DNA of 64,000 nt, taken from Sphingobacterium thalpophilum (lineage in GTDB: Bacteria > Bacteroidota > Bacteroidia > Sphingobacteriales > Sphingobacteriaceae). Positions 17,441 to 53,971 of this stretch are shown here, in pieces (the stretch's first letter is position 1; the number at the start of each line of letters is the position of its first letter). The stretch lies in assembly GCA_945878525.1 (NCBI GenBank), contig CAMCTU010000001.1, forward strand, positions 1 through 64,000, written 5' to 3'. A model generated the notes under the pieces. It worked only from the letters and a program-made list of their open reading frames with translations, searched no databases and was not told the origin of the DNA. A program made the position numbers and the translations under genes.

Positions 17441-18250
17441 TCAGATACTTCCGATAGCCATCATTTGATCCATATTGGGATTTGCACTTCCACCACGAAT
17501 TTCTAAAGTAACTGCAAAAGCCTGAGCGTTTTTGATGAACTTCATTTTTTTCATTCCTGTGCTATCTACTTCTGAGTCGAAAACGCCAAGATCTACAGGT
17601 TTTCCATCAACCATTGCCCATAATTGATATTGATGGTCTACATCATTTGAAGGCATTTTGATAGAAGATAGATCAATCATAACTTCTTCTTGTTCAAGAT
17701 TGAAAGCAATGAGCATACTGGCTTTCGGTGCTTTGGCTGAACCTTTGAGCGTCACTAGCTTATATGAAGCTTGATTTTGATAAAAATGCAAGGCGTTTCG
17801 GGTATCTCTTAATTCTTCATCAATAAAATTCACCTGACTTGAAAACCGCTCATTACCAGTCTGAAGAATTGCAATCTGACTATAAGAATCAGTTAATTTA
17901 TTGTTTAGATCGATTAGCAAAACTATGCTGATAAATAGAAGTGCAAGACTCGCAGCGAATGCATATTTATAGAATTGCCCGAATTTTGGCGATGAAACAT
18001 TAAGCGGTCTTGTTTCTGATTCTGAATTTTTAAGCGCATTCAATACTTTTTTCCGCAACGATTTTGACGGTTCAATTGCATTTGAAATAGCATAATTTGA
18101 GAGGGCAGATTCAATTTCAATGATTTCTGATTTAATTTCAGGATATTTTAAAGCATTCTGTTCTACTTCAAGCCTTTCTTCATTGCTTAAATCTCCCAGA
18201 ACATAATGTTCCAGGATGCCATTTTCCAGATATGATTTTAGGTCCTTCAC
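17441..18250 (-). CDS. RskA-like anti-sigma factor
   Basis: N-terminal zinc-less anti-sigma region, one TM (FAASLALLFISIVLLI), C-terminal YQLWAMVDGKPVDLGVF typical of anti-sigma-K factors; next to ECF sigma. Confidence 0.9.
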   Translation of the reverse strand: MKDLKSYLENGILEHYVLGDLSNEERLEVEQNALKYPEIKSEIIEIESALSNYAISNAIEPSKSLRKKVLNALKNSESETRPLNVSSPKFGQFYKYAFAASLALLFISIVLLIDLNNKLTDSYSQIAILQTGNERFSSQVNFIDEELRDTRNALHFYQNQASYKLVTLKGSAKAPKASMLIAFNLEQEEVMIDLSSIKMPSNDVDHQYQLWAMVDGKPVDLGVFDSEVDSTGMKKMKFIKNAQAFAVTLEIRGGSANPNMDQMMAIGSI

Positions 18251-18802
18251 TTAATTAAATACCTTTCTTAAACTGATAATAGCATTCCTTAACCTTGTTT
18301 TAACTGTTCCCAGTGGAATTTCAAGTTCTTCTGAGACCTCTGCATGTGTAAACCCACGGAAATAAACCAGATCAAGAACAATTTTCTGTTCGGGCTTCAA
18401 TTTAGCAACAAGTTCCTTTAATCCCATAACTTCAGGATTTAAAGTATTCCCCGAACGCATTTCCATAGTTAATACGTTATTTTCTATGTCTTCGGTTTTT
18501 GAACTGTTGCGAAAATCTTTTGAACGGGTTTTGTCAATAGAAATATTTCGTGCAATATTAACCATCCAGGTAAATAATCTTCCTTTGTTTGAATCATACG
18601 AAGAGAATGAATTCCAGATTCTTATAAAAGTATCTTGTAAGAGATCTTCAGCTATTTCTTCATGCTGAATTATCCTGTAAATAACACCATATAGTGAGGA
18701 TGAATACATCTCATATAATGCTTCAGCACCGACATTTTCCTTGTTACGGATAGCCTTTACTAATTCTTCTTCAGTCAGGAATATTTTTGTTTTAAGGCTC
18801 AA
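18251..18802 (-). CDS. ECF RNA polymerase sigma factor (SigK-like)
   Basis: Region 2 IAEDLLQDTFIRIWNSFSSYD, region 4 VYFRGFTHAEVSEELEIPLGTVKTRLRNAI. Confidence 0.94.
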   Translation of the reverse strand: MSLKTKIFLTEEELVKAIRNKENVGAEALYEMYSSSLYGVIYRIIQHEEIAEDLLQDTFIRIWNSFSSYDSNKGRLFTWMVNIARNISIDKTRSKDFRNSSKTEDIENNVLTMEMRSGNTLNPEVMGLKELVAKLKPEQKIVLDLVYFRGFTHAEVSEELEIPLGTVKTRLRNAIISLRKVFN

Positions 18803-19233: not shown

Positions 19234-19265
19234 ATTCTTATTAATTCCAACATAAATTGCAGATC

Positions 19266-21761
19266 ATGATTAACAGATTTTTTAAAGTTTTCCTATTCAT
19301 GGTATTTCTTATGCCTGCAGTTGTTCACGGACAGCAGAAAGCTCAAAATATAGAAGCTTACATTGCATCTGTTGAACCTTTATTAAAGATATCTCTGACC
19401 GATGTTAAGAATCTGGTACCACTGGGATCGGGTATTTTTTTTATCGGTTGCCCGAATTGTAAGGGAGGTGCTCAGGAGATGGGAATATTAAACTGGGAGC
19501 CTGGAATGGGGGATCAGGTAAAATGTAAATTTTGCAGTATGACTTTCCCAAATGTAAAATACCCAAATAGTGGCGAAAAAGTAATTATTGCACCAAGTGG
19601 CGCAAAACAGGTTTACCGTTATTTTGAGGACGCCAGTGGTACTCAATATTTCTATGAGGCACATGCTTGGTTTGAACGCTGGAAATGGATTCAGCAAATG
19701 GCTGTCCAGCTGTCTCAGGTATGGTTCCAGACAAAAGATCCTGCTTATGGCGACAGGGCTGCAATCATTGCGGGTCGTTTTGCACAGCTGTTTCCTGATT
19801 ATGCTATTCGGTACGATTATCCAAATGCTCCCAAGAAGTTTTTTCCTGCAAATCAAAAATGGCCTTATGAAGGTCTAGTTCCTTATCGTGGGGCCAAATG
19901 GAATTGGTGGGCTTATGGGGATATTCCGGTACAGATTGCCTTAACATACGAAAACTTGCAGAAGGGAGCTTATGACTGGAAGAGAATGGATTCACAAATT
20001 GGAAAGGACACGGACCAAAGAATCGTAAAAGATCTGTTGATTTCGGGCTATGAGTTTACTGCGGCTAACCCTGAAGTTTATACCAATATGTCGCCCGGTA
20101 TGTACAGGGATATGGTAATGGTAGGCCGGATACTTAACAGGCCCGACATGGTTCACGATGGAGTGAATCGCTTCAGGGAATTTTTAAAACTCGGTTTTTT
20201 TGCTGATGGCTGGTGGAAAGAGGGTACTGTTTCTTATCATGATCAGACGATTGGAGGCCTGGAGAGTGTGGCGAAGGCAGCGAAGGGGTATACAGATCCT
20301 GTGGACTTGAATGGGGAGCGTTTTGAAAATCTTGATCTGAGCAATGCTATGCCTTTTTATAAAAGTGCATTAAATGTAAGCCAGCAGGCAGTATTTCCAA
20401 ATGGTCACAAACTCCCTCTTAATGATACATGGGCAAACCGGGCTAAACCAGTAAAAGTGGATGGAATTGCTGTATCACGACTGTGGCCATCACTCGGGAA
20501 TGCAGCTTTGGCTGCTGGTACCGGAAACGATCAAACTATGCTCAATGTAAACTGGAGTGGTAATTATGGACATTCCCACTTAGACAATGCTTCCATAATC
20601 TTATTTGCCAATGGGGCTGAATTACTTTCGGATATTGGTTACACACATTCAAAATATCGCGGCTGGACCCTACATACAGCATCACATAATACAGTGGTTA
20701 TAGATCAGAAAGCACAGGATCTGGGCACCTTAGCAAAGCCTGTTACTGGTCGCCTGATGTTTTATGATGATCAGAACCCTCAGGTTAAAGTTATTGATCT
20801 TGATGCCTCTCCGGCTTATTCTACAGCTGCCCAGTACAGGAGAAGGCTGATATTTGTTCATGCGGCCGAAGGCAAGGATTATGTGATTGACCGGTTTGAT
20901 GTGGAAGGTGGACAGACACATGATTGGTTTTTGCATGGTATGTGCGAAGAAGAAGGAAAACTGGTGACCAGCATTTCAATGGATCGGGTGGTTAAAACGC
21001 TGGTACCCGATTGGGGAGGCACTGCTGTACCCATGAACCAGTATGATTCCGATATTATTGGAAAGAAAATTCATGCCTATTCCTATATGAGAGATATTAA
21101 GAAAGGCATAGTAAGTAAACCATGGACTGCAACTTGGAACTATCAAAATTCGGGGCTGCGCACTCATAATATACCCCAAAAAGATACAGAGGTATTTAGT
21201 TTTCGTGCCCCATCGGTTAGGCTCGCAGCCGAGGATGACAATAAACTTGACAATTTTATGCGCCTTGGAATAATGCAAAGGCATACCGGTAGCAAATCTA
21301 GTTTTGTGGCCATTCATGAACCTTTTCAAAGTAAACCATGGATTAAATCTGTTCGTGCCGACAGTGATACCTATCTAATTGATTATGAATTGAATGGTAA
21401 AAATATTCAGGACAGGATTAACCTGAAAGGAGATGATATTAGTCTTGTTTCGAGTGCGGGTTGGAAATATTCAAAGGGAAAGACAAAGTTGGGGATTTTA
21501 AATGGAATCAAATACTCAGGAGGAAAGCTTAATCTGGAATTGGATTCATCTCAACCTGATGTTTCCCATGTTCGTTTGGATTTTCCGGATGGATTAAGTT
21601 TGTATTTTCCAGCCAGAAACGTTTCTGGAAATGTGATTCAATTGGATAATGATCCTGGTTTTTCTATGGATAAGGGTGGAAAACTCCGTTTCTATACCTT
21701 TCCACATAATGAATATTCAGAACCGATACGTTATACGGTGTTCAGTAAATCCATCCAATAA
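19266..21761 (+). CDS. Heparinase II/III family protein with N-terminal zinc-ribbon-like CxxC pairs
   Basis: Signal peptide; CPNC...CKFC; GHSHLDNASIILFANGAELLSDIGY heparinase II/III motif. ATG at 19266 preferred over the TTG at 19257. Confidence 0.85.
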   Translation: MINRFFKVFLFMVFLMPAVVHGQQKAQNIEAYIASVEPLLKISLTDVKNLVPLGSGIFFIGCPNCKGGAQEMGILNWEPGMGDQVKCKFCSMTFPNVKYPNSGEKVIIAPSGAKQVYRYFEDASGTQYFYEAHAWFERWKWIQQMAVQLSQVWFQTKDPAYGDRAAIIAGRFAQLFPDYAIRYDYPNAPKKFFPANQKWPYEGLVPYRGAKWNWWAYGDIPVQIALTYENLQKGAYDWKRMDSQIGKDTDQRIVKDLLISGYEFTAANPEVYTNMSPGMYRDMVMVGRILNRPDMVHDGVNRFREFLKLGFFADGWWKEGTVSYHDQTIGGLESVAKAAKGYTDPVDLNGERFENLDLSNAMPFYKSALNVSQQAVFPNGHKLPLNDTWANRAKPVKVDGIAVSRLWPSLGNAALAAGTGNDQTMLNVNWSGNYGHSHLDNASIILFANGAELLSDIGYTHSKYRGWTLHTASHNTVVIDQKAQDLGTLAKPVTGRLMFYDDQNPQVKVIDLDASPAYSTAAQYRRRLIFVHAAEGKDYVIDRFDVEGGQTHDWFLHGMCEEEGKLVTSISMDRVVKTLVPDWGGTAVPMNQYDSDIIGKKIHAYSYMRDIKKGIVSKPWTATWNYQNSGLRTHNIPQKDTEVFSFRAPSVRLAAEDDNKLDNFMRLGIMQRHTGSKSSFVAIHEPFQSKPWIKSVRADSDTYLIDYELNGKNIQDRINLKGDDISLVSSAGWKYSKGKTKLGILNGIKYSGGKLNLELDSSQPDVSHVRLDFPDGLSLYFPARNVSGNVIQLDNDPGFSMDKGGKLRFYTFPHNEYSEPIRYTVFSKSIQ

Positions 21762-21881: not shown

Positions 21882-22065
21882 ATGTATAAATTTATCAATA
21901 TCTGAGGTGATTTTTTTAATTAAAACGTACTCTTGTAAAGAGAAATTGTTGTTCTGAGCTTAAATCAGAATACTTAAACTAATATTATTTTAATAACAAG
22001 CTTACTCAATCTGTTTAGGAAAGGGGATGTTAAAAATTACCATATTATACATAATCAAGCAGGGA

Positions 22066-24168
22066 ATGAAGACTAAATTCAATAGACGTTCAACCGTATT
22101 ATTTATTTCATTTATTTTATTAGCAGTAAACAGCATGGCTCAGCGTTATCCAGGGCCATTAAGTCCAGAAGAGTCAATGAAGAAACTTAATGTGGCTAAG
22201 GGCTATAAGGTTTCTTTATTTGCATCAGAGCCTCATGTTTTTGACCCGGTATCGCTAGAATTTGACGAACAGGGTAATGCCTATGTGATTGAAATGCCTG
22301 ATTATCCCTATGAGGTTGAACCCGGCAAGGGCCATGGACGTATCCGTATACTGAAAGATACGGATGGTGATGGTAAAATTGATCAGTCGATCATATTTGC
22401 TGAAAATGTAACCGAAGCAACCAGTATGCTGCCATGGAAAGGTGGACTTATCGTGACTGCTGCTCCCAATATTCTTTACCTGAAGGATACCAATGGGGAT
22501 GGTATATCAGATACCAGAGAAATTTTGTTCTCAGGATTTTTTCAGAATAATTCCGAGGCTCAGGTTACCAGTTTGAAATTGGGAATCGATAACTGGATTT
22601 ACGCAAATAATCGTGGTCAGAGTGGTAAAGTAGTTTTCGGTAAGACATCGGATGCTAAACCGGTTGAAGTCAGGGGTGCAGACTTTCGCTTCAGACTTGA
22701 CCGCGATGTATTTGAGCTTGAGACTGGTCCGGGACAGTTTGGACAAACTATTAACGACTGGGGACATCGGTTTTTTACTGAAAACTCAATTCACTTGCAG
22801 CAGGCAGTTATTCCATGGAGATATACGCACAGGCATGCATATATGCCAAGCACTAAGTTTAACACATCAATTACCGATCATGAAGAAATTATGTTTCAGG
22901 AAATCCCCCCCGCATATTGGAGAGCAGAACGAAGTGCGCGTAGAAACAGAGTATTCAAAGAAACAAATCTTAAACGAATAGAATGGGCAGAGGATCACTT
23001 TTCTGGGGCCGCCGGAGGAACTATTTATAATGGTGATGCCATGCCAAAGGAATTTTATGGCAACATTTTTACAACAGATGTTTCCGGTAGTTTGATCCAC
23101 AGAGATATTTTAAGTCCAAGTGAAATAAGTCCGGTTTTGGTTGCAAAACGTGCAGAATCTGAAAAGAACAGAGAATTTATCTATTCAACTGATACCTGGT
23201 TCCGACCTGTAACATTTTCTGTTGGCCCTGACGGATACTTATATATATTGGATTATTACAGACAGCATATCGAAACACCGGTTTCAATTCCTGATGACCT
23301 TAAAGCTGAAATGGATTTTATGGCGGGTAGTGATATGGGCAGGATTTATCGTCTCCTACCTGAAAATGGTACTTACCAGGGAGTAAAAGTAGATCTGAAA
23401 AATGCCAGCGGACTTCAATTGGTCGATTATTTGTCTCACAAGAACGGATGGTATCGCAGTAGCGCCCAGCGTCTGTTGCTCGAACGTCAGGATAAAACTG
23501 TTATTCCAGATGTGATTTCATTGTTTTCAAATAGTCCGGATGCAAGAACAAGACTACACGCACTTTACGTACTTGAAGGTTTGAATGCACTTACAGAAAA
23601 GATCGTTAAAAAGTCCTTATTGGATCCTGAACCTGGTGTTCGTGAAAATGGTATTATACTTGCTGAAAGATATCCAAAAACAACTAAGCTGTTAATTTCA
23701 ATGGTTAATGACCCATCTAAACGTGTTGCTTTACAAGCTGCACTTAGTCTGGGACAGTTTAATGGAAAGAAAGTGATTGAAACTTTGGCTGAAGTAATCA
23801 GAAAATATGGACAGAATGATTGGTTCAGGAGTGCAGTAATAAGCTCTGTACCCGGTTCCTCAGTTGAAATTTTAAATTCACTGGTACAGGATAATCTATT
23901 CTTCAGTAATCAAGAAAGCTGGAAACTTAGTTTCATGCAGGATTTGTCAAATATTATTGGTGCCAGATATAATAAGGAACAGTTTTCAGCTTATTTAAAT
24001 ACGCTGTCGTCTGGGGCATTATCTGCAGCAGATGTCCAGCAAGCTGCCTTAAAGGGGCTTAAAGCAGGATTAAATAAAAACGAGACTACAAAAGAGCTTG
24101 CAGCCCAGTTAAATCCGGGCACAATAGAAGGAGTGAAAGAAGGATTTCAAAAACTAAGAAAAAATTAG
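22066..24168 (+). CDS. DUF7133/membrane-bound-dehydrogenase-like beta-propeller plus HEAT-like repeats, no CxxCH
   Basis: GYKVSLFASEPHVFDPVSLEFDEQGNAYVIEMPDYPYE, DTDGDGKID; signal peptide starting MKTKFNRRS; no cysteine seen. Confidence 0.8.
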   Translation: MKTKFNRRSTVLFISFILLAVNSMAQRYPGPLSPEESMKKLNVAKGYKVSLFASEPHVFDPVSLEFDEQGNAYVIEMPDYPYEVEPGKGHGRIRILKDTDGDGKIDQSIIFAENVTEATSMLPWKGGLIVTAAPNILYLKDTNGDGISDTREILFSGFFQNNSEAQVTSLKLGIDNWIYANNRGQSGKVVFGKTSDAKPVEVRGADFRFRLDRDVFELETGPGQFGQTINDWGHRFFTENSIHLQQAVIPWRYTHRHAYMPSTKFNTSITDHEEIMFQEIPPAYWRAERSARRNRVFKETNLKRIEWAEDHFSGAAGGTIYNGDAMPKEFYGNIFTTDVSGSLIHRDILSPSEISPVLVAKRAESEKNREFIYSTDTWFRPVTFSVGPDGYLYILDYYRQHIETPVSIPDDLKAEMDFMAGSDMGRIYRLLPENGTYQGVKVDLKNASGLQLVDYLSHKNGWYRSSAQRLLLERQDKTVIPDVISLFSNSPDARTRLHALYVLEGLNALTEKIVKKSLLDPEPGVRENGIILAERYPKTTKLLISMVNDPSKRVALQAALSLGQFNGKKVIETLAEVIRKYGQNDWFRSAVISSVPGSSVEILNSLVQDNLFFSNQESWKLSFMQDLSNIIGARYNKEQFSAYLNTLSSGALSAADVQQAALKGLKAGLNKNETTKELAAQLNPGTIEGVKEGFQKLRKN

Positions 24169-24208: not shown

Positions 24209-24592
24209 ATGGAAGAACAAAAATATTCAAGAAGAAGGTTCATTGGTAAGTATGTACTTGCCGGATCACTTGCAATAGGATCAGGACTATTGATTGCAGG
24301 TAATACAGCTAGAAGTATGGCTAATGAAGGGGACTCAAAAAAACATCCTAAAAACCATCAGCCTTTACAAAAAAATCCTTGTGATGATCTTACCGGGGTT
24401 AGTGCTGATGAAGTTGCAAAACGAAAAAAGCTTGCTTATGTAAACAAAACACCAATTCCGGATAGTCATTGCAGTAATTGTGCACTTTACCTGCCGCCTG
24501 CTAAGGATAAACCATGTGGTGGTTGTATGTTGTTTAAAGGTCCGGTTCGTGCTGAAGGGTATTGTGCTTACTGGGCGCCGGTTAATAATTAG
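24209..24592 (+). CDS. High-potential iron-sulfur protein (HiPIP), Tat leader
   Basis: SRRRFIGKYVLAG leader; CSNCALYLPPAKDKPCGGCMLFKGPVRAEGYCAYWAP matches the HiPIP Cys pattern. Confidence 0.92.
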   Translation: MEEQKYSRRRFIGKYVLAGSLAIGSGLLIAGNTARSMANEGDSKKHPKNHQPLQKNPCDDLTGVSADEVAKRKKLAYVNKTPIPDSHCSNCALYLPPAKDKPCGGCMLFKGPVRAEGYCAYWAPVNN

Positions 24593-24748: not shown

Positions 24749-25951
24749 ATGAAAGCTCTGATCTGCATTTTTTTCTTATCTCTGGGTTTTTCCTGCTTTG
24801 CTCAGAAAGGGCAACAAATTCAATATTTAGGATCTGCGAATTTTCCGGGAGCTACGGATGCAGTAATTGTTGATGATATACCGCTTGTTCATACTACTCA
24901 ATTTTTGCCTTTCGATAAATCCGGTAATATTGTTGGAACCGATGATATCAATACGCAGATCAATCAGGTTTTTTTTAATATTTCATCTTCGTTGAAACAA
25001 GCTGGCTCAAGAATAGATCAAATTGTTAAACTTAATATCTATATCAGGAACTCAAGCCTGATTCCCGCAGTTCAGGAACAGATCAATAAGCGCTTTAAGT
25101 CAGGTAAGCGTCCTGCCTTAAGTTTCGTTGCCGGGGATCTTTCTCATCCTGTTGCATTAATTTCAATGGATGCTATTGCAGTTTCAGCTATAATCAATAC
25201 GACAGGTGTTAATTATCTGATAAATAAGAATTTATCCTCAGCTTCGGATGTTGTACAATCTGCAATTTTACCCGCTGGTCCGGTTGTTTATGTTTCAGGT
25301 CAGGCGGTTATAGGTGAACTTGCAGAAGCAACACGCGGTACATTAGAGCAGCTACAAGCTACACTTGTCTCACTGGGATTGGAGAAAAAGGATATTGTTC
25401 AGATCAAATCTTTCATCAGACCAATGTCTGACCTGAAAGTAGTAGAGAAGGAGTTTGCTAAATTCTTTAAAGGAAATACTATTCCACCGATGGTTAATGT
25501 TGAATGGACGAGTAAAGATCCGGTAATTGAAATAGAGCTGATTGCTTCATCTCCAAATATAGGACCTCAACCAGCTCAACAGCTTGATTTTATAACTCCT
25601 GCTGGAATGAAAACTTCACCCGTTTACTGTAAGGTTACCCGGATTAATTATGGGCAAAAGATCTATATATCAGGATTATACGGACAAGTTTCCGGAAATG
25701 CTGATTCTGAATTGGCATCTATCTTCAATCTAATGGGTGTCATTTTAAAAAACACCGGAAGTGATTTCAGACATCTTGTTAAAGCAACCTATTATGTTAG
25801 TAATGATGTTCACAGTGCTAAATTAAATGAAATTCGTCCAAAATATTATGACCCGCTTCGTCCGCCGGCTGCCTCAAAAGCTATGGTTAAAGACGTTGGA
25901 AAGCCTGAGGCGGGAATTTCTATTGATATGATTGGGGTTGTGATCAGGTAG
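24749..25951 (+). CDS. Secreted protein with three tandem RidA/YjgF-like domains
   Basis: Signal peptide (FFLSLGFSCFAQ) followed by three ~120-aa YjgF-type segments. Confidence 0.8.
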   Translation: MKALICIFFLSLGFSCFAQKGQQIQYLGSANFPGATDAVIVDDIPLVHTTQFLPFDKSGNIVGTDDINTQINQVFFNISSSLKQAGSRIDQIVKLNIYIRNSSLIPAVQEQINKRFKSGKRPALSFVAGDLSHPVALISMDAIAVSAIINTTGVNYLINKNLSSASDVVQSAILPAGPVVYVSGQAVIGELAEATRGTLEQLQATLVSLGLEKKDIVQIKSFIRPMSDLKVVEKEFAKFFKGNTIPPMVNVEWTSKDPVIEIELIASSPNIGPQPAQQLDFITPAGMKTSPVYCKVTRINYGQKIYISGLYGQVSGNADSELASIFNLMGVILKNTGSDFRHLVKATYYVSNDVHSAKLNEIRPKYYDPLRPPAASKAMVKDVGKPEAGISIDMIGVVIR

Positions 25952-26043: not shown

Positions 26044-26192
26044 TTAGTATATATAAAATTTTTATAATAGCAGACTCTTATTAAGCAGAAGGGTTCTCTT
26101 TACATATTATCTAGACTACTCTTTTAACCTGAACATTAATTAAAGCTCAAACCTTAGACCAAGGCCGATATTTGAACAGAAAAAAAATAGCC

Positions 26193-27581
26193 ATGAAAAA
26201 TAAAAAAACTGATTCATCGAGACGCAAGTTTTTAAAACAGAGCTCTGTGGCTGGGGTAGGGGCTGTGCTGACGATGGGTATGACACCTTCCCTGCTTGCA
26301 GGAAATTTAAACGGTACTGCAAGTCCAGCGATTTTAGGCGGCCCTTCAGCATGGGATAAGTCCAAATGGGTCAAATGGCCTATCTGGATACCTGAAACAG
26401 ATGAGAAGCGCGTTCTTGAAGTTCTCAGAAGCGGAATTTGGTCGCGGGCAGGAGTGGTCAATGAGTTTGAAGCTGCCTGGGCGAATGTCAACGGTGCTAA
26501 ACGTTGTTTGGTTGTAAATAATGGAACCAATGCTTTGATCATTGCAATGAACCAATTGGATATTAAAGTGGGTGATGAAGTGCTTGTTCCGCCTTATACC
26601 TTTATATCAACGGTGCAGGCTATTCTTATGAATGGTGCAATGCCGGTGTTTGTGGATATCGATCCTGAAACATATCAGATCGATCCAGCAAAAATTGAAG
26701 CAAAAATAACACCACGTACAAAAGCTATTTTGCCCGTACATATTTTAGGTATGCCCGCAGATATGCCAAGAATAATGGAAATTGCAAAAAAGCATAATCT
26801 GTTTGTGATTGAAGATGCCTGTCAGGCTCCATTGACTGAAGTGAACAATCAAAAAGTTGGCACGATTGGCAATGCGGGTTGTTTTAGCTTTCAAAACTCA
26901 AAAAACATACCGATTGGTGAAGGAGGAGCAATTCTGAGTAATGATGTATCTTTTATGGACCGCTGTGTTTCTTTTCAGAATCTCGGCCTGCCTTTTGGTA
27001 CCGCGGTAGGAACATTCAATGCAGGAAGTATAAGGATGGGTACTAAGGTTCGTATTACTGAATATCAGGCAGCAATTGGTTTGGCGCAGTTACAAAGGCT
27101 AGATGCACAAACCACTGTTCGTGAGGAGAATGCAAAGTATTTAAAATCGAAGATTCAGGATATTCCAGGGATTATTCCATATAAATTATATGATTGTGCA
27201 ACCCGGGTTTCATTCCACTTATTTTCATTCAGATATAAAAAGGAGGAATTTAAAGGTTTGTCAAGAAATTCTTTTTTACAGGCCTTACGTGCTGAAGGAG
27301 TACCATGTTCTGGTGGCTATACACCATTAAATAAGCAGGAATTTCTCAAGGAAGCTTTCGAATCAAAGAATTTTAAAAGGATGTATCACAAGGATATGCT
27401 CGATTATAATAAATATATGGAGCAAAATCAATGCCCTGAGAATGACCTTTTATGTACCGAAATGGTATGGTTTACTCAAAACCTGCTTCTTGGCAGCAGG
27501 GAAGACATGGATTCAATTGCTTATGCAATCAGTAAGATACAAGCCAGTGCAGAATCTGTTAAAAAATCATTGGAAAAATAA
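26193..27581 (+). CDS. DegT/DnrJ/EryC1/StrS-type PLP aminotransferase with Tat leader
   Basis: SRRKFLKQSSVAG leader; VNNGTNALIIAM; catalytic-Lys motif CFSFQNSKNIPIGEGGAI. Confidence 0.9.
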   Translation: MKNKKTDSSRRKFLKQSSVAGVGAVLTMGMTPSLLAGNLNGTASPAILGGPSAWDKSKWVKWPIWIPETDEKRVLEVLRSGIWSRAGVVNEFEAAWANVNGAKRCLVVNNGTNALIIAMNQLDIKVGDEVLVPPYTFISTVQAILMNGAMPVFVDIDPETYQIDPAKIEAKITPRTKAILPVHILGMPADMPRIMEIAKKHNLFVIEDACQAPLTEVNNQKVGTIGNAGCFSFQNSKNIPIGEGGAILSNDVSFMDRCVSFQNLGLPFGTAVGTFNAGSIRMGTKVRITEYQAAIGLAQLQRLDAQTTVREENAKYLKSKIQDIPGIIPYKLYDCATRVSFHLFSFRYKKEEFKGLSRNSFLQALRAEGVPCSGGYTPLNKQEFLKEAFESKNFKRMYHKDMLDYNKYMEQNQCPENDLLCTEMVWFTQNLLLGSREDMDSIAYAISKIQASAESVKKSLEK

Positions 27582-29341: not shown

Positions 29342-32300
29342 ATGTTAAAAATTTACATGATGAAGTTTAAAAAACAAAGTTATTATACCTCCGGAGCAGG
29401 GATAGTAATGCTGCTTATGCTGTTGCTGAGTTTCTCAGATCAGGCTTTATCGCAGCAATTAAAAAGTATAACCGGAACAGTACTTGAAGCTGGTCAGCCA
29501 CTTCCAGGCGTGACAGTTAGAGTAAAGGGAACTAATAGAGGAACAACTACATTGGCAAACGGAAAGTACAGTATTGAAGCTGCCAATAATGAAACCCTTG
29601 TTTTTGCTTTTCTAGGGATGGTAACTCAAGAAACTGTCGTTGGTAATCGTTCAACTGTTAACGTTACTCTACAAGTTTCAAGTGCTTCTTTAAGTGAAGT
29701 AGTTGTTATTGGTTATGGAACTGTAAAAAAACCAGATCTTACTGGTTCTGTGGGTGTGGTGCCGATGGATGACATGATGAAAGCTCCTGTTGGTACATTT
29801 GCTGAAGCCCTTGCTGGCCGTGTGGCTGGTGTAAAGGTTAATGCTTCTGATGGTCAGCCTGGTGGCGGTATAAACATTGTAATTAGAGGTGCTGGTTCTT
29901 TAACCCAAAGTACAGCTCCTTTATATGTAATTGATGGTTTTCCTGTCGAAAATCCAGATCCTGCAAGTATCAATCCTGAAGAGATTGAATCAATGACCAT
30001 ATTGAAGGATGCATCATCTACTGCAATTTATGGATCAAGAGCAGCAAATGGAGTAATTCTTATACAAACAAAACGCGGTTCGGTAGGAAAACCAGTGGTT
30101 AATTTTTCAAGTTCTTATGGTATTCAAGAAATGCCAAAAGCTATGGAAGTTATGAGTCCCTATGAGTTTATAAAATATCAAACGGAGTTAAATCCATTAA
30201 TAGCAACAACGAGAGCGTTTTTTGCAGGTGGCAAAACTCTAGAAGATTATAAATCTGCTGCAGGTGTAAATTTCCAGGATTATGTATTACAGCAGGGTGC
30301 TATACAGAATTATAATCTTGCATTACGAGGTGGAACCGATCAAACTAAATATTCTATTTCTGGTTCTTTATTTGATCAGATTGGTTCAATTATAAACACT
30401 GGTTTAAATCGTTATTCAGGAAGAGCAACGCTTGATCAGAATATTAGTAATAAAATAAAGGCTGGTGTAACAGTTAATTATAGTGGAATTAAACAATACG
30501 GTCAGGTAATCAATCAGGGAGCTGTAACCCAAGGAAACCCAACAGCTTTTGCATTAGCTAGAGCATGGTTATATCGTCCAATCTCTCCTAATCCAAATGA
30601 CGATCTTCTTGCTGATGCAGTAGATGATGATGCCTTAAATGCTTCTGATTTTAGAGTAAATCCATTTATTGATCTTCAGAATCAGCATTCATTCAATATT
30701 ACTAATCTTGTTGAAACTAATGGATACTTAAGCTATGAAATCAATAAAAACTTAAATATTCAGTCAAATGCTGGTATTCGTCATAATAAGTTAACGCTAG
30801 AACGATTCTATAATTCAAAAACCGCACAGGGAGGTCCTAGTCCGAATAACGTGAATGGGGTAAATGGTTCAATTAGTAATCTTTTCTCGAATAGCTTCTC
30901 GAATGAAACTACCTTGAACTATAAGAAAACCTTCAAGAAAGATCATACCATTACTGGATTGGGCTTATTTGCAATAAATAGTAACAATACCAATACTAAA
31001 GGATATGCTGGAAGACTATTACCTAATGAGAATTTGGGAATGGATGGCCTGGAAGAAGGTTTGGCCTTCAATCCTGTATCTTCTTCAAGTGTTAATACAA
31101 TGGCTTCCTATGCTGGAAGGTTAGATTATAATTATAAATCTAAGTATATAGTAACAGGTACATTTAGAGCAGATGGTTCCTCAAAGTTCAGAGACCATTG
31201 GGGATATTTCCCTGGTGCTGCCTTAGCATGGAATATGCATAAAGAAGGATTCTTTGCCAAGTTATTACCTGGTGTTTCTACCTCCAAAATTAGATCCAGT
31301 TATGGTAGTAATGGTAACAATAGGGTTGGTGATTTTGATACCTATGCGCGTTTATTACAGAGTGTGAATGGTTATTCATTTAATAATGGAACACCAATAG
31401 CTTCTAATTCTGTTTCTTCAATAGGCAATCCTGATCTAGCATGGGAAAAGGTTACTACAATTGATTTAGGTTATGAGATTGGTATTTTGAAAGACAGGGT
31501 TGTTCTTGAAATGGATCTGTACAGAAAAACTACTGAAAATCTATTATTGAATGCAATTCTACCTTCTTCTACTGGATTTGGTTCTGCTGTAAAGAATATT
31601 GGTAAATTAAGAAATGATGGTCTTGAATTCACTTTGAATACTGTTAATGTACAGACCAAAGACTTTTCATGGGAAAGTAACCTGAATATTAGTTTCAATA
31701 AAAATAAGGTTATGGAGCTTACACGTGGGCAACGTGCTTTAACTTCTAATTCAGACTATGTTTCTCAATTTAATAAGCCTTTATATGTAGCTGAAATTGG
31801 AAAACCTGCTGGAATGATGATTGGATTTATATGGGAAGGTAATTATCAGTATTCAGATTTTGATAATCCTTCGCCCGGTGTTTATATCTTGAAACCTTCT
31901 GTGCCTACTAATGGAGCTGTTCGAAATACTATTTTGCCAGGCGATATCAAATACAAAGACATCAATGGAGACGGTATTATGAATGATGCAGATTTAACTT
32001 TTATTGGTAATGGACAGCCAATTCATACTGGTGGTTTTTCAAATAATTTCAACTATAAGGCATTTAGTTTAAATGTATTCTTTCAATGGTCTTATGGTAA
32101 TGATATCTATAATGCTAATAGGTTGATCATGGAAGGAAATAGTAATGGTTGGGCTAATATCAATCAGTTTGCTAGTTATTCTAATCGTTGGACTCCTGAA
32201 AACCCGACCAATGCTAATTATCGCACACGTGGACAAGGGCCAATTGGTTTTCACTCTTCTAGAGTGGTAGAAGATGGTTCATTTATTCGTATGAAAACTG

Positions 32301-32518
32301 TTTCTTTAAACTATAACTTACCTGCTAAACTAATTAAGACTGCCTATTTGAGTAATTTAAGCCTGAATGTTTCTGCACAGAATCTTATAACATGGACAAA
32401 TTACTCAGGTATGGACCCTGAAGTTTCTACCCGTAATAACACCTTGACTCCAGGTTTTGACTATTCGTCCTATCCAAAGTCACCAACAATTGCCTTTGGA
32501 ATTAAAGCAGGATTTTAA
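29342..32518 (+). CDS. SusC/RagA-type TonB-dependent outer membrane receptor
   Basis: CarboxypepD_reg-like domain, SEVVVIGYGTVKKPDLTGSV, IKDASSTAIYGSRAANGVI. Confidence 0.96.
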   Translation: MLKIYMMKFKKQSYYTSGAGIVMLLMLLLSFSDQALSQQLKSITGTVLEAGQPLPGVTVRVKGTNRGTTTLANGKYSIEAANNETLVFAFLGMVTQETVVGNRSTVNVTLQVSSASLSEVVVIGYGTVKKPDLTGSVGVVPMDDMMKAPVGTFAEALAGRVAGVKVNASDGQPGGGINIVIRGAGSLTQSTAPLYVIDGFPVENPDPASINPEEIESMTILKDASSTAIYGSRAANGVILIQTKRGSVGKPVVNFSSSYGIQEMPKAMEVMSPYEFIKYQTELNPLIATTRAFFAGGKTLEDYKSAAGVNFQDYVLQQGAIQNYNLALRGGTDQTKYSISGSLFDQIGSIINTGLNRYSGRATLDQNISNKIKAGVTVNYSGIKQYGQVINQGAVTQGNPTAFALARAWLYRPISPNPNDDLLADAVDDDALNASDFRVNPFIDLQNQHSFNITNLVETNGYLSYEINKNLNIQSNAGIRHNKLTLERFYNSKTAQGGPSPNNVNGVNGSISNLFSNSFSNETTLNYKKTFKKDHTITGLGLFAINSNNTNTKGYAGRLLPNENLGMDGLEEGLAFNPVSSSSVNTMASYAGRLDYNYKSKYIVTGTFRADGSSKFRDHWGYFPGAALAWNMHKEGFFAKLLPGVSTSKIRSSYGSNGNNRVGDFDTYARLLQSVNGYSFNNGTPIASNSVSSIGNPDLAWEKVTTIDLGYEIGILKDRVVLEMDLYRKTTENLLLNAILPSSTGFGSAVKNIGKLRNDGLEFTLNTVNVQTKDFSWESNLNISFNKNKVMELTRGQRALTSNSDYVSQFNKPLYVAEIGKPAGMMIGFIWEGNYQYSDFDNPSPGVYILKPSVPTNGAVRNTILPGDIKYKDINGDGIMNDADLTFIGNGQPIHTGGFSNNFNYKAFSLNVFFQWSYGNDIYNANRLIMEGNSNGWANINQFASYSNRWTPENPTNANYRTRGQGPIGFHSSRVVEDGSFIRMKTVSLNYNLPAKLIKTAYLSNLSLNVSAQNLITWTNYSGMDPEVSTRNNTLTPGFDYSSYPKSPTIAFGIKAGF

Positions 32519-32537
32519 TTAAATTAATCTTAAGAAA

Positions 32538-34352
32538 ATGAAAGTAAAATATTTATTAATCGCAATACTTTTCTTAACGAGTTTAGGCTCTTGTAAGAAA
32601 TATCTGGAAACAGAACCAACTGATTTCCTTAATCCGAAAAACTATTATGAAACTGAAGCACAGTTGCAATTTGCGCGTGCTGGGGTTTATCATCATCTAG
32701 GTGCAGGTAACCTTCATGGTACTTATGCTAGTTATCTTCTTGCATGGCATGGTGATGAAGGCTATATGAACAGGGCTACATTGACTACTGGTCCTTGGAA
32801 TTATTTCTATTCTTCTGCAGATCAGTATAATAATGGTTTATGGTCTAACCTTTGGCAAGGAATAAATAAAGCCAATGTTTTGATTGCCAATGTGGATAAA
32901 AATCCAGCTATTGCCCAGTCTAAGCGCGATGCAATCAGGGGTGAAATGCTATTCCTTAGAGGTTATTATTACTTCACTCTTGTTCAATATTATGGTGGTG
33001 TTCCATTGAAACTTACTCCTACAACATCAGTTATTGATGTTGAATCTACTAGAGCGCCCGCAAAGGATGTTTATTTGCAAATCTTAAAAGATATGGAAGC
33101 AGCTGAAAAATTAGTCCCAAGTATTAAAACTTTAGGCTATGGAGGCGCTATCAGTAAGTCGGCAGTTCGTGGGCTATTAGCGCGTGTGAACCTGCACATG
33201 GCTGGTGCACCCATTAAGGATGCTACTAGATATGCAGAAGCTAGCAAATGGGCAAAAATGGTAATAGATGATGCAGAGGCTGGTCATTCACTTAATCCAA
33301 GCTACTCACAAATATTCATTAATCTGGCTGCCGATAAATACGATATCAAAGAAAGTATCTGGGAGGTTGAATTTTATGGAAATGGTCTTGATCAATATGT
33401 GGAAACCGGAAATATAGGATGGATTAATGGTCCTGCGGCTGCTGTTTCGTCGCCAACTGGAAGGGCTGATGCCTACATGAACATCACATCTGAACTCTAT
33501 AATGCATTTGAACCTGGTGATAATAGAAAATGGTTCAGTATTGCTCATTTTACTTATACTGGTACAGGCGCCAAAACAATGAGTTTATTGCCTGTTTCAG
33601 AAGATGCAAAAAACAATTTAAAGCCAGCAAAATGGAGAAGAGAGTATGAAACTTTATTGCCGAAAAGTCCAACAAATACTCCTATAAACATGGTCCTTCT
33701 TAGATATTCAGATATTCTTTTAATGTACGCTGAAGCACAAAATGAAATAAATGGTCCAACTGCTGAAGCTGTAGCAGCATTTAATCAAGTAAAAAGAAGA
33801 GGGTGGTCAACAGGAATTAAAGCCATCAGCATTACTAACGGCGGTGCTGGATATACTACTGCTCCAACTGTAACTTTTAGTGGTACCGGAGGTGCTACAG
33901 CAACTGCTACTGTAACCGCTGGAAAGGTTACAGAAATAACTTTGGATCGTGATCCTGCTGCAATTACCTTTTTCAATGAGGGTAAATATACTACTGTTCC
34001 TACAATTACGCTTAGCGGTGGAGGAGGTTCTGGAGCAACAGCAACAGCAACAATCTGGAAATCAACTGATGGAGATATAAATCCTACATCCAAAACAGCC
34101 TTCTTGGAAGCCATTCAAGTTGAAAGAATGAGAGAGTTCAACTTTGAAAATACAAGAAAAGCTGATTTACTTCGCTGGGGAATATTCTTAAAAGTACATC
34201 AGGACATGGGTAATAAATTACAGCAGCAAAGTCCAGGTCAATATTTTGTTAAGTATTATTCAAATGTTAGTGCTAGAGATCTTTTGATGCCAATTCCTAT
34301 CAATGAAATGTCTTCAAACTCAAAAATGACACAAAATCCTGGTTGGGAATAA
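32538..34352 (+). CDS. SusD/RagB-type lipoprotein with internal repeat insertion
   Basis: Lipobox LGSCKKYLETEPTDFLNP, FLRGYYYFTLVQYYGGVPL, VERMREFNFENTRKADLLRWG. Confidence 0.95.
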   Translation: MKVKYLLIAILFLTSLGSCKKYLETEPTDFLNPKNYYETEAQLQFARAGVYHHLGAGNLHGTYASYLLAWHGDEGYMNRATLTTGPWNYFYSSADQYNNGLWSNLWQGINKANVLIANVDKNPAIAQSKRDAIRGEMLFLRGYYYFTLVQYYGGVPLKLTPTTSVIDVESTRAPAKDVYLQILKDMEAAEKLVPSIKTLGYGGAISKSAVRGLLARVNLHMAGAPIKDATRYAEASKWAKMVIDDAEAGHSLNPSYSQIFINLAADKYDIKESIWEVEFYGNGLDQYVETGNIGWINGPAAAVSSPTGRADAYMNITSELYNAFEPGDNRKWFSIAHFTYTGTGAKTMSLLPVSEDAKNNLKPAKWRREYETLLPKSPTNTPINMVLLRYSDILLMYAEAQNEINGPTAEAVAAFNQVKRRGWSTGIKAISITNGGAGYTTAPTVTFSGTGGATATATVTAGKVTEITLDRDPAAITFFNEGKYTTVPTITLSGGGGSGATATATIWKSTDGDINPTSKTAFLEAIQVERMREFNFENTRKADLLRWGIFLKVHQDMGNKLQQQSPGQYFVKYYSNVSARDLLMPIPINEMSSNSKMTQNPGWE

Positions 34353-34373
34353 CATTAATTCAAATTAGAAATT

Positions 34374-35447
34374 ATGAAAATTAAATTATATAGCATTGTA
34401 GCAGCGGCCTTATTGATGGCTTCCTGCGAAAAGCCCACTATTGAAGCAGAGGCTCCGGTTTTTGATGTTAATACTGAAAAAGCGACCTATAAAGTAGGAG
34501 AGACCATTAAATTCATGATTATTGGTGGTGAAACACAGAATATTTCTTTTTATTCTGGAGAGTTACTTAAGGATTATTATTCAAGAACTGGACGTGTGGT
34601 TGATGTTGTGGGTGCTGGAGCAAATCTTACCTTCAGCAGTAGCGTTCAGTTAGGAACACAGGCTGATCAAGTAACACTTTTGGCATCAACTAATTTTTCT
34701 GGTGATTATTCTAGCCTTGCTAAAGTAAAAGCGGCTACATGGGTAGATATTACCAGCAGATTTAAATTAGGTACAAGTGCAACCTTACTTACTTCGGGTA
34801 CAGTTAATATTTCTGACTTATTACTTGCCGGAAAACCAATCTATTTTGCTTTCCGTTACAATACAAAGTCTCAAGCTGTCAGTGGTGTTAATCGTCAATG
34901 GTTTATTCAGTCGTTCACTGTTAATAGCCTTAAATTACTTAATAATACGCTAGCTCTAACTATTGCAGATCAGGCTAGTGCGGGCTTTAGAATTGTAGAT
35001 GATTTAAAAGATAAAGCTCCTGCATTGTCTTCAGTTACTGCAACTAGATTAACGCTTCAGGGCAATACTTATCTGACTGCAGGCCTACCTCAGTTTAATC
35101 CTGCTAATCCAATTTTTGATCCTAAGAATGTAATATATAATCCACAGGATCCGGCATATCAGCCTTCAGCTGTTTATAAGCCATTTGTTGCTTTTGATCC
35201 AGCTAGTCCATTCAATGATCCTATATCTGAGCATTGGGCTATAAGTAAAGGGATATCTATTGACAAGGTAGATTTAGGACCAGATTGGTCATTAGCTATT
35301 AAAGGATTAACAAATCCCGTATTACCAGAATACCGTTATTCGTATCCTGTTGCAGGTACTTTTAAAGCCGTTTTTGTTGCCTCAAATGGTAATATTGATC
35401 AAAGTCGTGAAGTTACTAAAGAGATTACTCTTACAATAACTCCTTAA
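34374..35447 (+). CDS. DUF5017-type SusE/F-position surface lipoprotein
   Basis: Lipobox MASCEKP; third gene after SusC/SusD; DVNTEKATYKVGETIKFMI..FYSGE. Confidence 0.8.
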   Translation: MKIKLYSIVAAALLMASCEKPTIEAEAPVFDVNTEKATYKVGETIKFMIIGGETQNISFYSGELLKDYYSRTGRVVDVVGAGANLTFSSSVQLGTQADQVTLLASTNFSGDYSSLAKVKAATWVDITSRFKLGTSATLLTSGTVNISDLLLAGKPIYFAFRYNTKSQAVSGVNRQWFIQSFTVNSLKLLNNTLALTIADQASAGFRIVDDLKDKAPALSSVTATRLTLQGNTYLTAGLPQFNPANPIFDPKNVIYNPQDPAYQPSAVYKPFVAFDPASPFNDPISEHWAISKGISIDKVDLGPDWSLAIKGLTNPVLPEYRYSYPVAGTFKAVFVASNGNIDQSREVTKEITLTITP

Positions 35448-37777: not shown

Positions 37778-38776
37778 ATGCTCAAAAAAGAATACTCAAG
37801 ACGTGAATTTATAATTAAAAATTCATTTGCAGGACTCGGTGCTGCTCTATCGATGGGATTTGTTCCCAACCTGATTGCAAATACTTTGGATCAGAATGCT
37901 TTGTTGGATCGTAGAAATGCTGCCGAACCCATTATTGATATACATCAGCATACAGATTATAGCGGAAGATCAAATGATCTGCTGATACCTCATCAGCGTG
38001 CAATGGGAGTGACTAAAACAATTTTATTGCCTGCAGGTCGTCCGCTGAGTTATGGCTCTACCTATTATGGCTATAGCAATGGACTGCAGGCGCAAGCCAC
38101 AGGTAATGAAGTATGTTTTCAATTTGCAAAAGCCCATTCTGATGAATTTATTTTTGGGGCAAATGAAGTTCCGGATATGCCGGGTGCAGTACGGGAAATT
38201 GAAAAATATCTAAAGCTCGGTGCTCCTGTTATTGGGGAGCTCAAATTCGGACTTGATTGTGACTCCCCGGCAATGCAGCGTATTTATGAACTGGCAACTT
38301 CTTATAATGTTCCTGTTTTGATGCATTGGCAACACAATATGTATAACAGAGGTATAGAACGCTTCCACATAATGCTGAAGAAATACCCAAAAGTGAATTT
38401 TATTGGTCATGCACAAACCTGGTGGGCAGATATTGATAAGAATCATATTGATCAGAATATTCTTTATCCTAAGGGTAATGTGAGCAGGGGAGGACTAACA
38501 GATCGTCTGCTTACTGAATATCCGAATATGTTTGGTGATTTCTCAGCAGGTTCCGGATTGGGCTCACTGACCAGAGATGAGGATCATGCCCGCGGATTTT
38601 TAGAACGTCACCAGGATAAATTGCTTTTTGGTAGTGATTGCTCTGATTTTCTGGGTGCCGGGAAGTCCTGCCTTGGGGCTAATATCATACCTGCCATCCG
38701 TAAATTAGCTCCAAATAAGGCTGTCGAGCGGAAAATACTGTATGAGAATGCCCAAAAACTATTCAAACTTTCATAA
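37778..38776 (+). CDS. Amidohydrolase (PF04909-like) with Tat leader
   Basis: SRREFIIKNSFAG; IIDIHQHTDY metal motif; FGSDCSDF. Confidence 0.87.
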   Translation: MLKKEYSRREFIIKNSFAGLGAALSMGFVPNLIANTLDQNALLDRRNAAEPIIDIHQHTDYSGRSNDLLIPHQRAMGVTKTILLPAGRPLSYGSTYYGYSNGLQAQATGNEVCFQFAKAHSDEFIFGANEVPDMPGAVREIEKYLKLGAPVIGELKFGLDCDSPAMQRIYELATSYNVPVLMHWQHNMYNRGIERFHIMLKKYPKVNFIGHAQTWWADIDKNHIDQNILYPKGNVSRGGLTDRLLTEYPNMFGDFSAGSGLGSLTRDEDHARGFLERHQDKLLFGSDCSDFLGAGKSCLGANIIPAIRKLAPNKAVERKILYENAQKLFKLS

Positions 38777-38819
38777 ATGTCCAAAATTTATTCAAAATAA
38801 ATATATTATAACCTTCAAA

Positions 38820-40190
38820 ATGAAAATTTTAATCATTAATCTGCTAATAGTTCTAGTCACATTCCTAATTCCGGTTCAGGCACAAAATACCGCTAACCTT
38901 GAATGGAAAGCCGGTGTTAGTAAAGCCGATATTACCCCAAAGATGGCCATGCCTATGGCAGGTTTTGCTGCCCGTACTCACTCATCAGATGGCACTTTGC
39001 ATCGCATCTGGGCAAAGGCTTTGGCTATCGAAGATTCAAAGGGAAATAAAGCTGTAATGGTCAGTTCTGATCTTTTGGGCTTCCCTAAAGATGTATCCGA
39101 CCGGATCAGAGATCGGGTAAAATCGAACTATGGATTAGATCGTGCTCAGATTTTGCTCAATAGTTCCCATACCCATTCCGGACCTGTAATTGGGGACGCC
39201 CTGATGGATATTTACGTTCTTGACAATCAGCAAATTGAAAGTATTAAGCAATACACCAAAATTCTCGAGGATCAGATTGTAAATATGGTTGGAGAGGCTC
39301 TTAAGGATATGGAGCCGGCAGGACTATTTGCTCAAAATGGAGTTACACGATTTCAGGTGAACCGCCGGAATAATGCAGCAAATTTACTTACCCAGTTAAC
39401 AGAGCTTCAGGGTCCAAATGATTATGCAGTTCCGGTAATCAAGGTTATGAATGCAAAAGGAGATATTAAAGCAATTGCTTTTGGATATGCCTGTCATCCA
39501 ACAGTTTTAAGTGGCTATGACTGGTCTGGTGATTATCCAGGATTTACACAGATTGAGCTTGAAAATACATATCCTGGCGCCACCGCATTATTTTTTCAAA
39601 GTGCAGGTGCTGATCAAAATCCCTTACCAAGACATACCGTACCTTTGGCTAAGCAATATGGAAAGGAACTTGCTGCAGCAGTTGAGCGGGTACTGGAAGA
39701 AGATATGCGCAAATTGCCTTCAGGTTTGATGACAAGCTACTCAGAATTGGATCTTCCACTGGCAACTCCACCAACTGAAGCAGAATATACAAAATTCATA
39801 GGTACAAGTACTGTTCCTTATCAAAAGAGATGGGCCGAACGTATGAGGGGGAAGATCAGATCAGGTGAAAAATTAATTACTTCTTACCCATATCCTGTTC
39901 AGGTATGGTCGATCGGCGATCAGCCTATTGTGAGCCTTGGTGGTGAGCTTTTAATTGAATATGCTATAAAAATAAAACAAATGCTGGGTGCTGATGCATT
40001 TGTATATGGATATTCAAATGATGTTATGGCCTATGTTCCTTCATCCCTTGTGCTAAAAGAAGGCTCTTATGAAGGGGAATCACATACTGTTTATGGTCTC
40101 CCTTCCAAATGGCAGGTAGGAATCGAAACAAGGATACTGAATGAGGTAATTAAACTATCAGAGAAGAACGGTCTCATTAAAAATAAATAA
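38820..40190 (+). CDS. Neutral/alkaline non-lysosomal ceramidase-like protein (copy 1)
   Basis: AGVSKADITPKMAMPMAGF, LNSSHTHSGP, SGDYPGF; likely start at internal ATG after ORF-track start. Confidence 0.88.
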   Translation: MKILIINLLIVLVTFLIPVQAQNTANLEWKAGVSKADITPKMAMPMAGFAARTHSSDGTLHRIWAKALAIEDSKGNKAVMVSSDLLGFPKDVSDRIRDRVKSNYGLDRAQILLNSSHTHSGPVIGDALMDIYVLDNQQIESIKQYTKILEDQIVNMVGEALKDMEPAGLFAQNGVTRFQVNRRNNAANLLTQLTELQGPNDYAVPVIKVMNAKGDIKAIAFGYACHPTVLSGYDWSGDYPGFTQIELENTYPGATALFFQSAGADQNPLPRHTVPLAKQYGKELAAAVERVLEEDMRKLPSGLMTSYSELDLPLATPPTEAEYTKFIGTSTVPYQKRWAERMRGKIRSGEKLITSYPYPVQVWSIGDQPIVSLGGELLIEYAIKIKQMLGADAFVYGYSNDVMAYVPSSLVLKEGSYEGESHTVYGLPSKWQVGIETRILNEVIKLSEKNGLIKNK

Positions 40191-53100: not shown

Positions 53101-53971
53101 GCTTATTTTTATTGCCACTGAGAACTGGAATGTACATACACTAGACATCAATGGAAAAGAATTGTGGAACTATAAATTTCCGGACGATCAGCCGCATCGT
53201 GAATATAAGGGCAATTTGATAGGAATAACAAATGTCAGGATTGCACACAAAAATGGCAAAGACCAACAACCTGTAATCATGGTTGGTACTCAGTACAGGT
53301 ATATTTATGAACTGGATCTGGATGGAAAATTTAAAAACGAAACGGTCTTATATTACTATGGTATCGAGGATATGGAATATGCTGATCTGGATGCTGATGG
53401 CATGGAGGAGGGGATTTTTGCACTTGAATATTACTATTATACACTGGTAAAGGATAATGAACTGATCACAGGGAAAACCGGTGGACCGGGATGGAAAATT
53501 GCCGATGTATTGAATAAAGGTTCTCAAACTTTTAAGCCAACAGTGCTATTAGGGACAAAGCAAAGTGAGATCAGAATGATTGGTTTTGATAAAAAAATTA
53601 AGGAATACTGGAACAGTAATGTAGGTGGGGAGGTAAATGATATCCGCCACGGCGATTTTAATAATGATGGAAAGCTTGAAATTCTTGTCGGGACTGAAGG
53701 TTTCCAGTTTTATGTGCTGGATGATAAAGGAAATACAATTTTTAGAAAAACATTGTATGACAGGGTTTTGAAAGTTGAGGGATACCAAATCCAGAATAAG
53801 TCAAAATATCTTGCTGCAACGGCAGGGGGGCATTTGTTTAATTTTTCGAATTTGGGAAGTACAGAAGAATCAATTCAGTTTCCAGATGAAATTTCAAATA
53901 TTTTCACTGAAAAAGGCTCGGCAAAATCTCTAATAGTCTTAGTGAACGGGGATGTATACCGATTAATGTAA
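50123..53971 (+). CDS. 1282-aa exported heparinase II/III-like protein with C-terminal FG-GAP/beta-propeller
   Basis: FSAGKHGHQDGNAILNYSSKGRLFLNDRDY (heparinase-like) followed by DLNGDNIEDILLGG / DFNNDGKLEILVGTEG repeats. Confidence 0.75.
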   Translation: MFKLRMLNYFIRGIILFIFCYFNTELFGKESQSIHLSDSSNLKSIAPRNLQRSTSLNDVKIIVPEEQAWKDLADDMQGFIKQKTGKTPEIGHPDPLKFVNGWSGNIILLGNLGNNKQMARLYGLRLSYADAIYPGKAGYQLLTLINPFGLGGNTILVSSSDIEGAKRGLDRLKVILQSGNNAQIPWLFESELPEETISYFRPNIKSVNEILSKMKPVVNNELTVDALLNVLAGIKLYGEYFQLTANPKYGEVYADLLKGFAQFVNQHPSEAIYQLNERKNMWIQGEKIFQNWTVLEASQFFSDSDRTQILSALYLVCKANYMDNYLVKAPESGPRWNHEIFPALSLVGSCQYFQKYYSLPEIVQWINRGERIFSGNTSFISLDEGSDYLAHLPVANIDYAMLSGDLKFINLSLRPSADLHSMMVDNLGTLSGGGDTYPFGMSSAYSWGHSQLLNAASWYYNEPVYNFLLERTRTGPFTGQKMPDLIYPIHRYIVTLNNPGQPDGTLYAKVQAQEIEKGVYDDLINQMDNNVPEFQKDPDDEDQKSKKQDRINIDQNDSFHKLTFRSGFGLNDNYLILDGFSAGKHGHQDGNAILNYSSKGRLFLNDRDYIQNTPEYHSGLVIVKDGKQGKKPPLAKLDWVADIEGTAISSSIVPAYNGADWKRTIISPEGKFFIIFDDLKFNEAGSFLLKNHWQSLGNPKIEKNRFLVEQKGISMQLQSLSPADLRLKDIYGHFIKYWKTVYSYPYADHETVLTEVINEKEYIKGDQVGFINVLSSHSSDAEFVRSANIGKNTIEINSGNQKWIAVKDELNSTVFSSNGKFHLIGDKELIAASVTKIRIGNLDINFKEAVFFKWDRKSGEWKAFDLLKDKIKYKQSGETLRQSAIDSGKIDWKADLKNQILKQIIPVPDKRQLMSQNQIKSLPVNSSDRVYSMKERISSSFSSDLNGDNIEDILLGGINGTVNAIDSKGNKLWAFSANGRVNEVSLQYAGNKALIFIATENWNVHTLDINGKELWNYKFPDDQPHREYKGNLIGITNVRIAHKNGKDQQPVIMVGTQYRYIYELDLDGKFKNETVLYYYGIEDMEYADLDADGMEEGIFALEYYYYTLVKDNELITGKTGGPGWKIADVLNKGSQTFKPTVLLGTKQSEIRMIGFDKKIKEYWNSNVGGEVNDIRHGDFNNDGKLEILVGTEGFQFYVLDDKGNTIFRKTLYDRVLKVEGYQIQNKSKYLAATAGGHLFNFSNLGSTEESIQFPDEISNIFTEKGSAKSLIVLVNGDVYRLM

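Follow-up and report, generated by a model that had tools for sequence, protein, structure and literature searches.

The window, i.e., the whole stretch of 64,000 nucleotides that was analysed, stems from a soil and freshwater bacterium and carries a SusC/SusD glycan locus, in which a gene for an exported triple-Rid protein (termed tRidA in the following) lies among genes for redox and glycan-related proteins (Table 1). SusD was assigned by PF07980 and PF14322, the DUF5017 protein by Pfam, and SusC by its TonB-receptor-like sequence and its position before SusD. The locus also encodes a DUF1080 protein, a Gfo/Idh/MocA protein, amidohydrolases and a ceramidase-like protein. An ECF sigma factor and an RskA-type anti-sigma factor are possible regulators of the locus, their upstream position being shared by syntenic loci in the genus; a promoter scan gave no more hits than chance would (27 found against 27.3 expected). 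A further product of the window matches a lambda-carrageenase-type beta-propeller in its C-terminal part and gave no Pfam match in its N-terminal part.

Table 1. Coordinates of tRidA, its domains and further features of the window.
Feature	Positions	Strand	Remarks
ECF sigma factor and RskA-type anti-sigma factor	17441-18802	-	
Heparinase II/III-like protein	19257-21761	+	exported; first gene of the locus
PVC-type/DUF7133 protein	22027-24168	+	beta-propeller-type domain and HEAT repeats; predicted to be exported; no Cys
HiPIP-type [4Fe-4S] electron carrier	24209-24592	+	PF01355; Tat-like RR leader; six invariant Cys
tRidA	24749-25951	+	400 aa; ATG start; predicted Sec/SPI export
tRidA signal peptide	24749-24802	+	residues 1-18; cleavage SCFA/Q19 (Q-rule)
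tRidA Rid domain 1 (D1)	24887-25183	+	PF01042; domain extent ~residues 22-150; L124 at the Arg105 position
tRidA Rid domain 2 (D2)	25256-25546	+	PF01042; domain extent residues 151-272; M248 at the Arg105 position
tRidA Rid domain 3 (D3)	25643-25939	+	PF01042 match; domain begins slightly earlier (Y293, ~25625); domain extent residues 273-400; A375 at the Arg105 position
DegT-family PLP aminotransferase	26172-27581	+	Tat-exported; frequent, not invariant neighbour
SusC/SusD pair and DUF5017 protein	29342-35447	+	glycan uptake
Neutral-ceramidase-like protein	38742-40190		
1282-aa protein	50123-53971		PF25292 match (E 7.7e-13), C-terminal

The open reading frame of tRidA has exactly the boundaries given in the original prediction, and the protein is real and well conserved. 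The Pfam model PF01042 (Ribonuc_L-PSP) matches tRidA in three stretches with 122.2 bits (cut-off 27.3; E=1.6e-35), and a whole-genome PF01042 search resolved three separate domains above the cut-off, which rules out an origin of the repeats by chance or low complexity. With a score above the curated cut-off and YjgF units in its structural model, tRidA is a member of the Rid superfamily. The protein had also been predicted to be secreted, which is supported by the Sec signal peptide: the Ala18-Gln19 junction is conserved and Gln19 is invariant in all 13 full-length sequences aligned, as the Q-rule would lead one to expect, so that the signal peptide is considered to be real. The Q-rule describes an Ala-Gln cleavage junction in substrates of Bacteroidetes signal peptidase I (PMC5837995).

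Structure prediction with AlphaFold, based on an alignment of only six homologous sequences, resulted in three complete beta-beta-alpha-beta-alpha-beta-beta units (approximately residues 38–145, 170–267, and 293–397) with a pTM of 0.75 and a mean pLDDT of 68.7 in the one model of five that was well folded, the other four being unfolded. Together with the three PF01042 stretches this confirms the three YjgF-like segments read earlier from the sequence; the model contains three YjgF folds and not fewer. Prediction for the mature chain was of lower quality (pTM 0.63); units 1 and 2 could be recognised clearly, whereas unit 3 had formed only in part. The three units may close into a ring of the RidA type, but a single model in five folded and the TM-scores to multi-domain structures are low. 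In a Foldseek search the best full-length matches were chorismatases and Toblerone enzymes at low TM-scores of 0.20–0.25. The chorismatases 4bps, 5a3k and 5ag3, which led the full-length matches (E ~1e-9 to 1e-10), resemble tRidA as single chains with YjgF-like folds, but reach a TM-score of only 0.24–0.25 by query length, and the chorismatase model TIGR04444 scores 18.5 bits on tRidA against a cut-off of 325. The interpretation as a covalently fused trimer holds insofar as three YjgF units are present in one chain; the idea itself, however, was already published in 2015, when tandem triple RidA proteins such as EF_0115 were named 3x-RidA and read as trimer units joined covalently (PMC4433059). 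Given 3x-RidA, the chorismatases and cyanuric acid hydrolase, in which three YjgF-like units are likewise concatenated in a single chain (PMC3758960), the architecture of tRidA is not new. tRidA shares the three tandem Rid domains with 3x-RidA. Unlike 3x-RidA, which is classed within the RidA subfamily (PMC4433059), tRidA is exported, lacks the arginine in every domain, and its domains fall with the PPAST Rids described below.

The loss of the catalytic arginine, which had been noticed in the window's protein, extends to all 13 full-length sequences aligned: the arginine of the PAR motif is replaced in D1 by Leu, Val or Ile, in D2 by Leu, Met, Val or Ile, and in D3 always by Ala. None of the domains in these sequences thus carries the Arg105 characteristic of the RidA subfamily, and the subfamily model TIGR00004 scores 84.5 bits on tRidA, below its cut-off of 106.25. 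The protein therefore probably does something other than classical imine deamination, be it binding or a different catalysis, as originally proposed.

The pocket residues were compared in the 13 full-length proteins by literal-anchor numbering with TdcF as the reference, for which seven residues are described: Tyr17, Gly31, Asn56, Asn88, Arg105, Pro114, and Glu120 (PMC1884159). D1 is the least conserved domain (51% mean pairwise identity) and retains Asn56 in 12 of the 13 proteins, nearly every other pocket residue being lost. D2 retains Gly31 (G184) and Glu120 (E261) throughout, and D3 retains Tyr17 (Y293) in all, Asn88 (N360) in 11 and Gly31 in nine of the sequences, so that Glu120 is kept in D2 only and Tyr17 in D3 only. 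Moreover, the site of the PAR motif in D3 is taken by an invariant PAASK, in which A375 replaces the arginine and K377 occupies the Cys107 position. Across the proteins, D2 and D3 are each conserved at 62–63% identity, and K295, K345, R363, S376, K377, and D393 are invariant. That the remaining pocket residues are distributed so unevenly suggests one composite cleft in tRidA. As Glu120 of TdcF spans to residue 107 of the neighboring subunit (PMC1884159), Glu261 of D2 and the PAASK of D3 would form one composite site.

The origin of the protein was addressed with a tree of 82 Rid domain sequences, for which the single-domain relatives were gathered with the profile of the triple protein itself, so that the sample favors its neighbors. 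Each of the domains D1, D2, and D3 makes up its own clade (100/99 or better), and all three cluster with exported single-domain Rids, the PPAST Rids, apart from canonical RidA (91/83). The stems of D2 (1.91) and D3 (2.08) are much longer than that of D1 (0.87); long stems followed by strong conservation are the pattern of a new function. The PPAST Rids of Sphingobacteriaceae (~155 aa) are the nearest relatives of tRidA in the tree and most have a signal peptide; Arg105 is replaced by Ser in 17 of 17, an Arg is found at the Asn88 position in 17 of 17, and Gly31, Asn56, and Glu120 (17/17) as well as Tyr17 (16/17) are kept in their single domain, whereas the triple protein splits or loses these residues. 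In canonical TdcF, Asn88 hydrogen-bonds Arg105 (PMC1884159), so that the pocket arginine seems to have been relocated within the pocket of the PPAST Rids. Of the two arginines of their RxxR motif only the second has an invariant counterpart in tRidA, R363 of D3. Since these tree neighbors already lack Arg105, its loss most simply predates the triplication. As part of our tentative overall explanation, tRidA would have arisen by internal triplication of an exported PPAST Rid that was already devoid of the arginine. The domain tree, a check proposed together with the fusion idea, places the cytoplasmic triple Rid separately and rejects for tRidA a derivation from fused canonical RidA of the kind seen in that protein. 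PPAST Rids are widespread and mostly exported, and their RxxR motif lies at the place of Asn88 in canonical RidA.

This second triple Rid (~408 aa; L034, 1432–2658; L056, 1024–2253, minus strand) has no signal peptide and adjoins an AraC-like regulator. It was found in two other Bacteroidota genomes, keeps the arginine in each domain and groups with canonical RidA in the tree; it is an independent triplication.

Full-length tRidA was found in 14 of 401 genomes of the family Sphingobacteriaceae, 11 of them in the genus of the window, next to one fragment at a contig edge; among 396 genomes of the phylum the window's own genome was the only one with a full-length triple. In 13 of the 14 species the genes for the PVC protein and HiPIP lie directly upstream of tRidA in this order and on the same strand, with gaps between HiPIP and tRidA of -28 to 176 bp in the syntenic loci. 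The trio is also retained in two species of other genera (G239, with a tRidA 42% identical, and G703, 53%), in which most other neighbors differ. In G078, however, tRidA stands alone and the PVC-HiPIP pair is located elsewhere in the genome without a tRidA, showing that the link is not absolute; moreover, as 11 of the 14 species belong to one genus, the co-inheritance is weaker as independent evidence.

The PVC protein is a clear member of the PVC-type dehydrogenase-like proteins (TIGR02604/DUF7133), scoring 266.6 bits with the TIGR02604 N-terminal domain model (cut-off 122.2); from its family membership it is predicted to be a sugar dehydrogenase. A PDB sequence search with it matched only artificial HEAT-like repeats. 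The haem-binding motif CxxCH is absent from the ten PVC copies checked, and the protein of the tRidA locus is haem-free and instead paired with the adjacent HiPIP, which would thus be the natural electron acceptor. The HiPIP matches PF01355 with 29.0 bits (cut-off 22), and C88, C91, C106, and C119 are invariant; with C58 and C103 it has two invariant cysteines more than the cluster needs. Among 301 genomes of the order eight more distant HiPIPs each adjoin a DUF7133 gene without a tRidA. As the HiPIP profile was made from tRidA loci and high scores there are partly due to its construction, a tree of 21 PVC proteins was used as evidence instead: those accompanied by tRidA form one clade (100/100). 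Their signal peptides follow the Q-rule, while other PVC proteins appear lipoprotein-like by eye. The eight pairs without tRidA and the single PVC clade with it suggest that PVC and HiPIP form the core redox pair, to which tRidA is a lineage-fixed addition. The pair is recurrent in the family, and seven of the eight such loci adjoin a neutral-ceramidase-like gene, a homologue of which is present in the window.

The export signal, the three Rid folds, the loss of the arginine, the divided pocket and the co-inheritance with PVC and HiPIP are the observations on which a functional interpretation can build. As the tRidA gene directly follows those of the redox pair in 13 of 14 species, the protein probably handles the dehydrogenase product. 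Our leading, albeit tentative, explanation is that tRidA acts as a periplasmic auxiliary of the PVC-dehydrogenase/HiPIP couple in the glycan locus, binding or hydrolysing the oxidised product. The predicted PVC/DUF7133 propeller dehydrogenase would pass its electrons to the Tat-exported HiPIP, and tRidA would be a fixed accessory of one PVC-HiPIP lineage. Its three domains may form a closed ring like that of RidA. Of the three clefts between domains, the one in which the Glu side of D2 faces the PAASK/N360/R363 side of D3 would have been repurposed as a binding or active site. An unstable oxidised product may be bound there and then hydrolysed or handed on, a candidate being a sugar or amino sugar derived from the glycan locus, in its keto-, imino- or lactone form. 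Rid pockets may accommodate a sugar: the title of PDB entry 3k0t, seen among the Foldseek results, names a complex with beta-D-glucose. That a pseudo-trimeric Rid with a single site forms, together with the dehydrogenase and HiPIP, a new type of periplasmic oxidative unit for sugars or amino sugars, with a new chemistry at the D2/D3 cleft, goes further and is rather doubtful.

Nearly as likely as a protein that binds and hydrolyses or hands on is one with a pure binding or scaffold role, a less probable yet serious possibility in which the pseudo-trimer would bind the PVC protein, HiPIP or the oxidised sugar, or act as a chaperone, with no chemistry of its own. Such a role would fit the loss of the catalytic arginine in all three domains and a D1 stripped of nearly every pocket residue, and E. 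coli RidA serves as an HOCl-activated chaperone (PMC4284807); however, the many invariant polar residues in D2 and D3, several of them at former pocket positions, are more suggestive of a site than of a plain surface.

Two further mechanisms are unlikely. The RidA paradigm would make tRidA a periplasmic imine/enamine deaminase that protects the PLP aminotransferase encoded next to it, and the position next to an exported PLP enzyme had been pointed out before. The neighbor is indeed a DegT aminotransferase with a Tat signal, adjacent in 11 of 14 species, and the arginine at the Asn88 position of the PPAST relatives might stand in for Arg105. The link is weaker than assumed, however, and the aminotransferase is dispensable: G703 and G078 lack it beside the gene, and its only counterpart in G239 is 39% identical and encoded on the opposite strand, so that it was rejected as the defining partner in favor of PVC and HiPIP, which are present in 13 of the 14 species. 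Moreover, Arg105 is essential for RidA deaminase activity and the Arg-less Rid7 was inactive (PMC4433059), whereas tRidA has Leu, Met and Ala at this position, and R363 is the one arginine of the ancestral RxxR motif that is still invariant, making deamination improbable. Less probable still is a ring-opening hydrolase with an active site in the central barrel, as in cyanuric acid hydrolase (Toblerone fold). Cyclic amide hydrolases are among the full-length Foldseek matches, AtzD probably originated by concatenation of YjgF units (PMC3758960), and Ser376-Lys377 is invariant in tRidA. The units of tRidA, however, are full YjgF folds and not the four-stranded unit of AtzD, and the Ser-Lys pair that Toblerone enzymes have in each unit is found in D3 only and not repeated in D1 and D2. 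A family-level sequence link is missing as well: in Pfam, tRidA matches PF01042 and one sub-threshold model only, and no cyanuric acid hydrolase/Toblerone family was matched in Pfam or NCBIfam up to E=0.1.

If the rather doubtful reading as a new oxidative unit is true, the chemistry at the D2/D3 cleft would be the first function for Arg-less Rids of the tRidA kind; for Arg-less Rids (Rid4 to Rid7, and the Ser variant) no activity was known when the family was surveyed in 2015 (PMC4433059). A literature search returned no description of an exported Rid or of a PVC-HiPIP couple. The genomic evidence ties an Arg-less Rid to a specific redox couple and thereby yields a concrete substrate hypothesis. 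Furthermore, the unequal fate of the fused domains illustrates how a one-site protein could develop from a symmetric trimer. Exported Rids are common in the organism of the window: its genome contains 13 PF01042 stretches, and six other single-domain Rids carry export leaders, judged by eye to be of the Tat-like, Sec or lipoprotein type, most of these proteins keeping the arginine.
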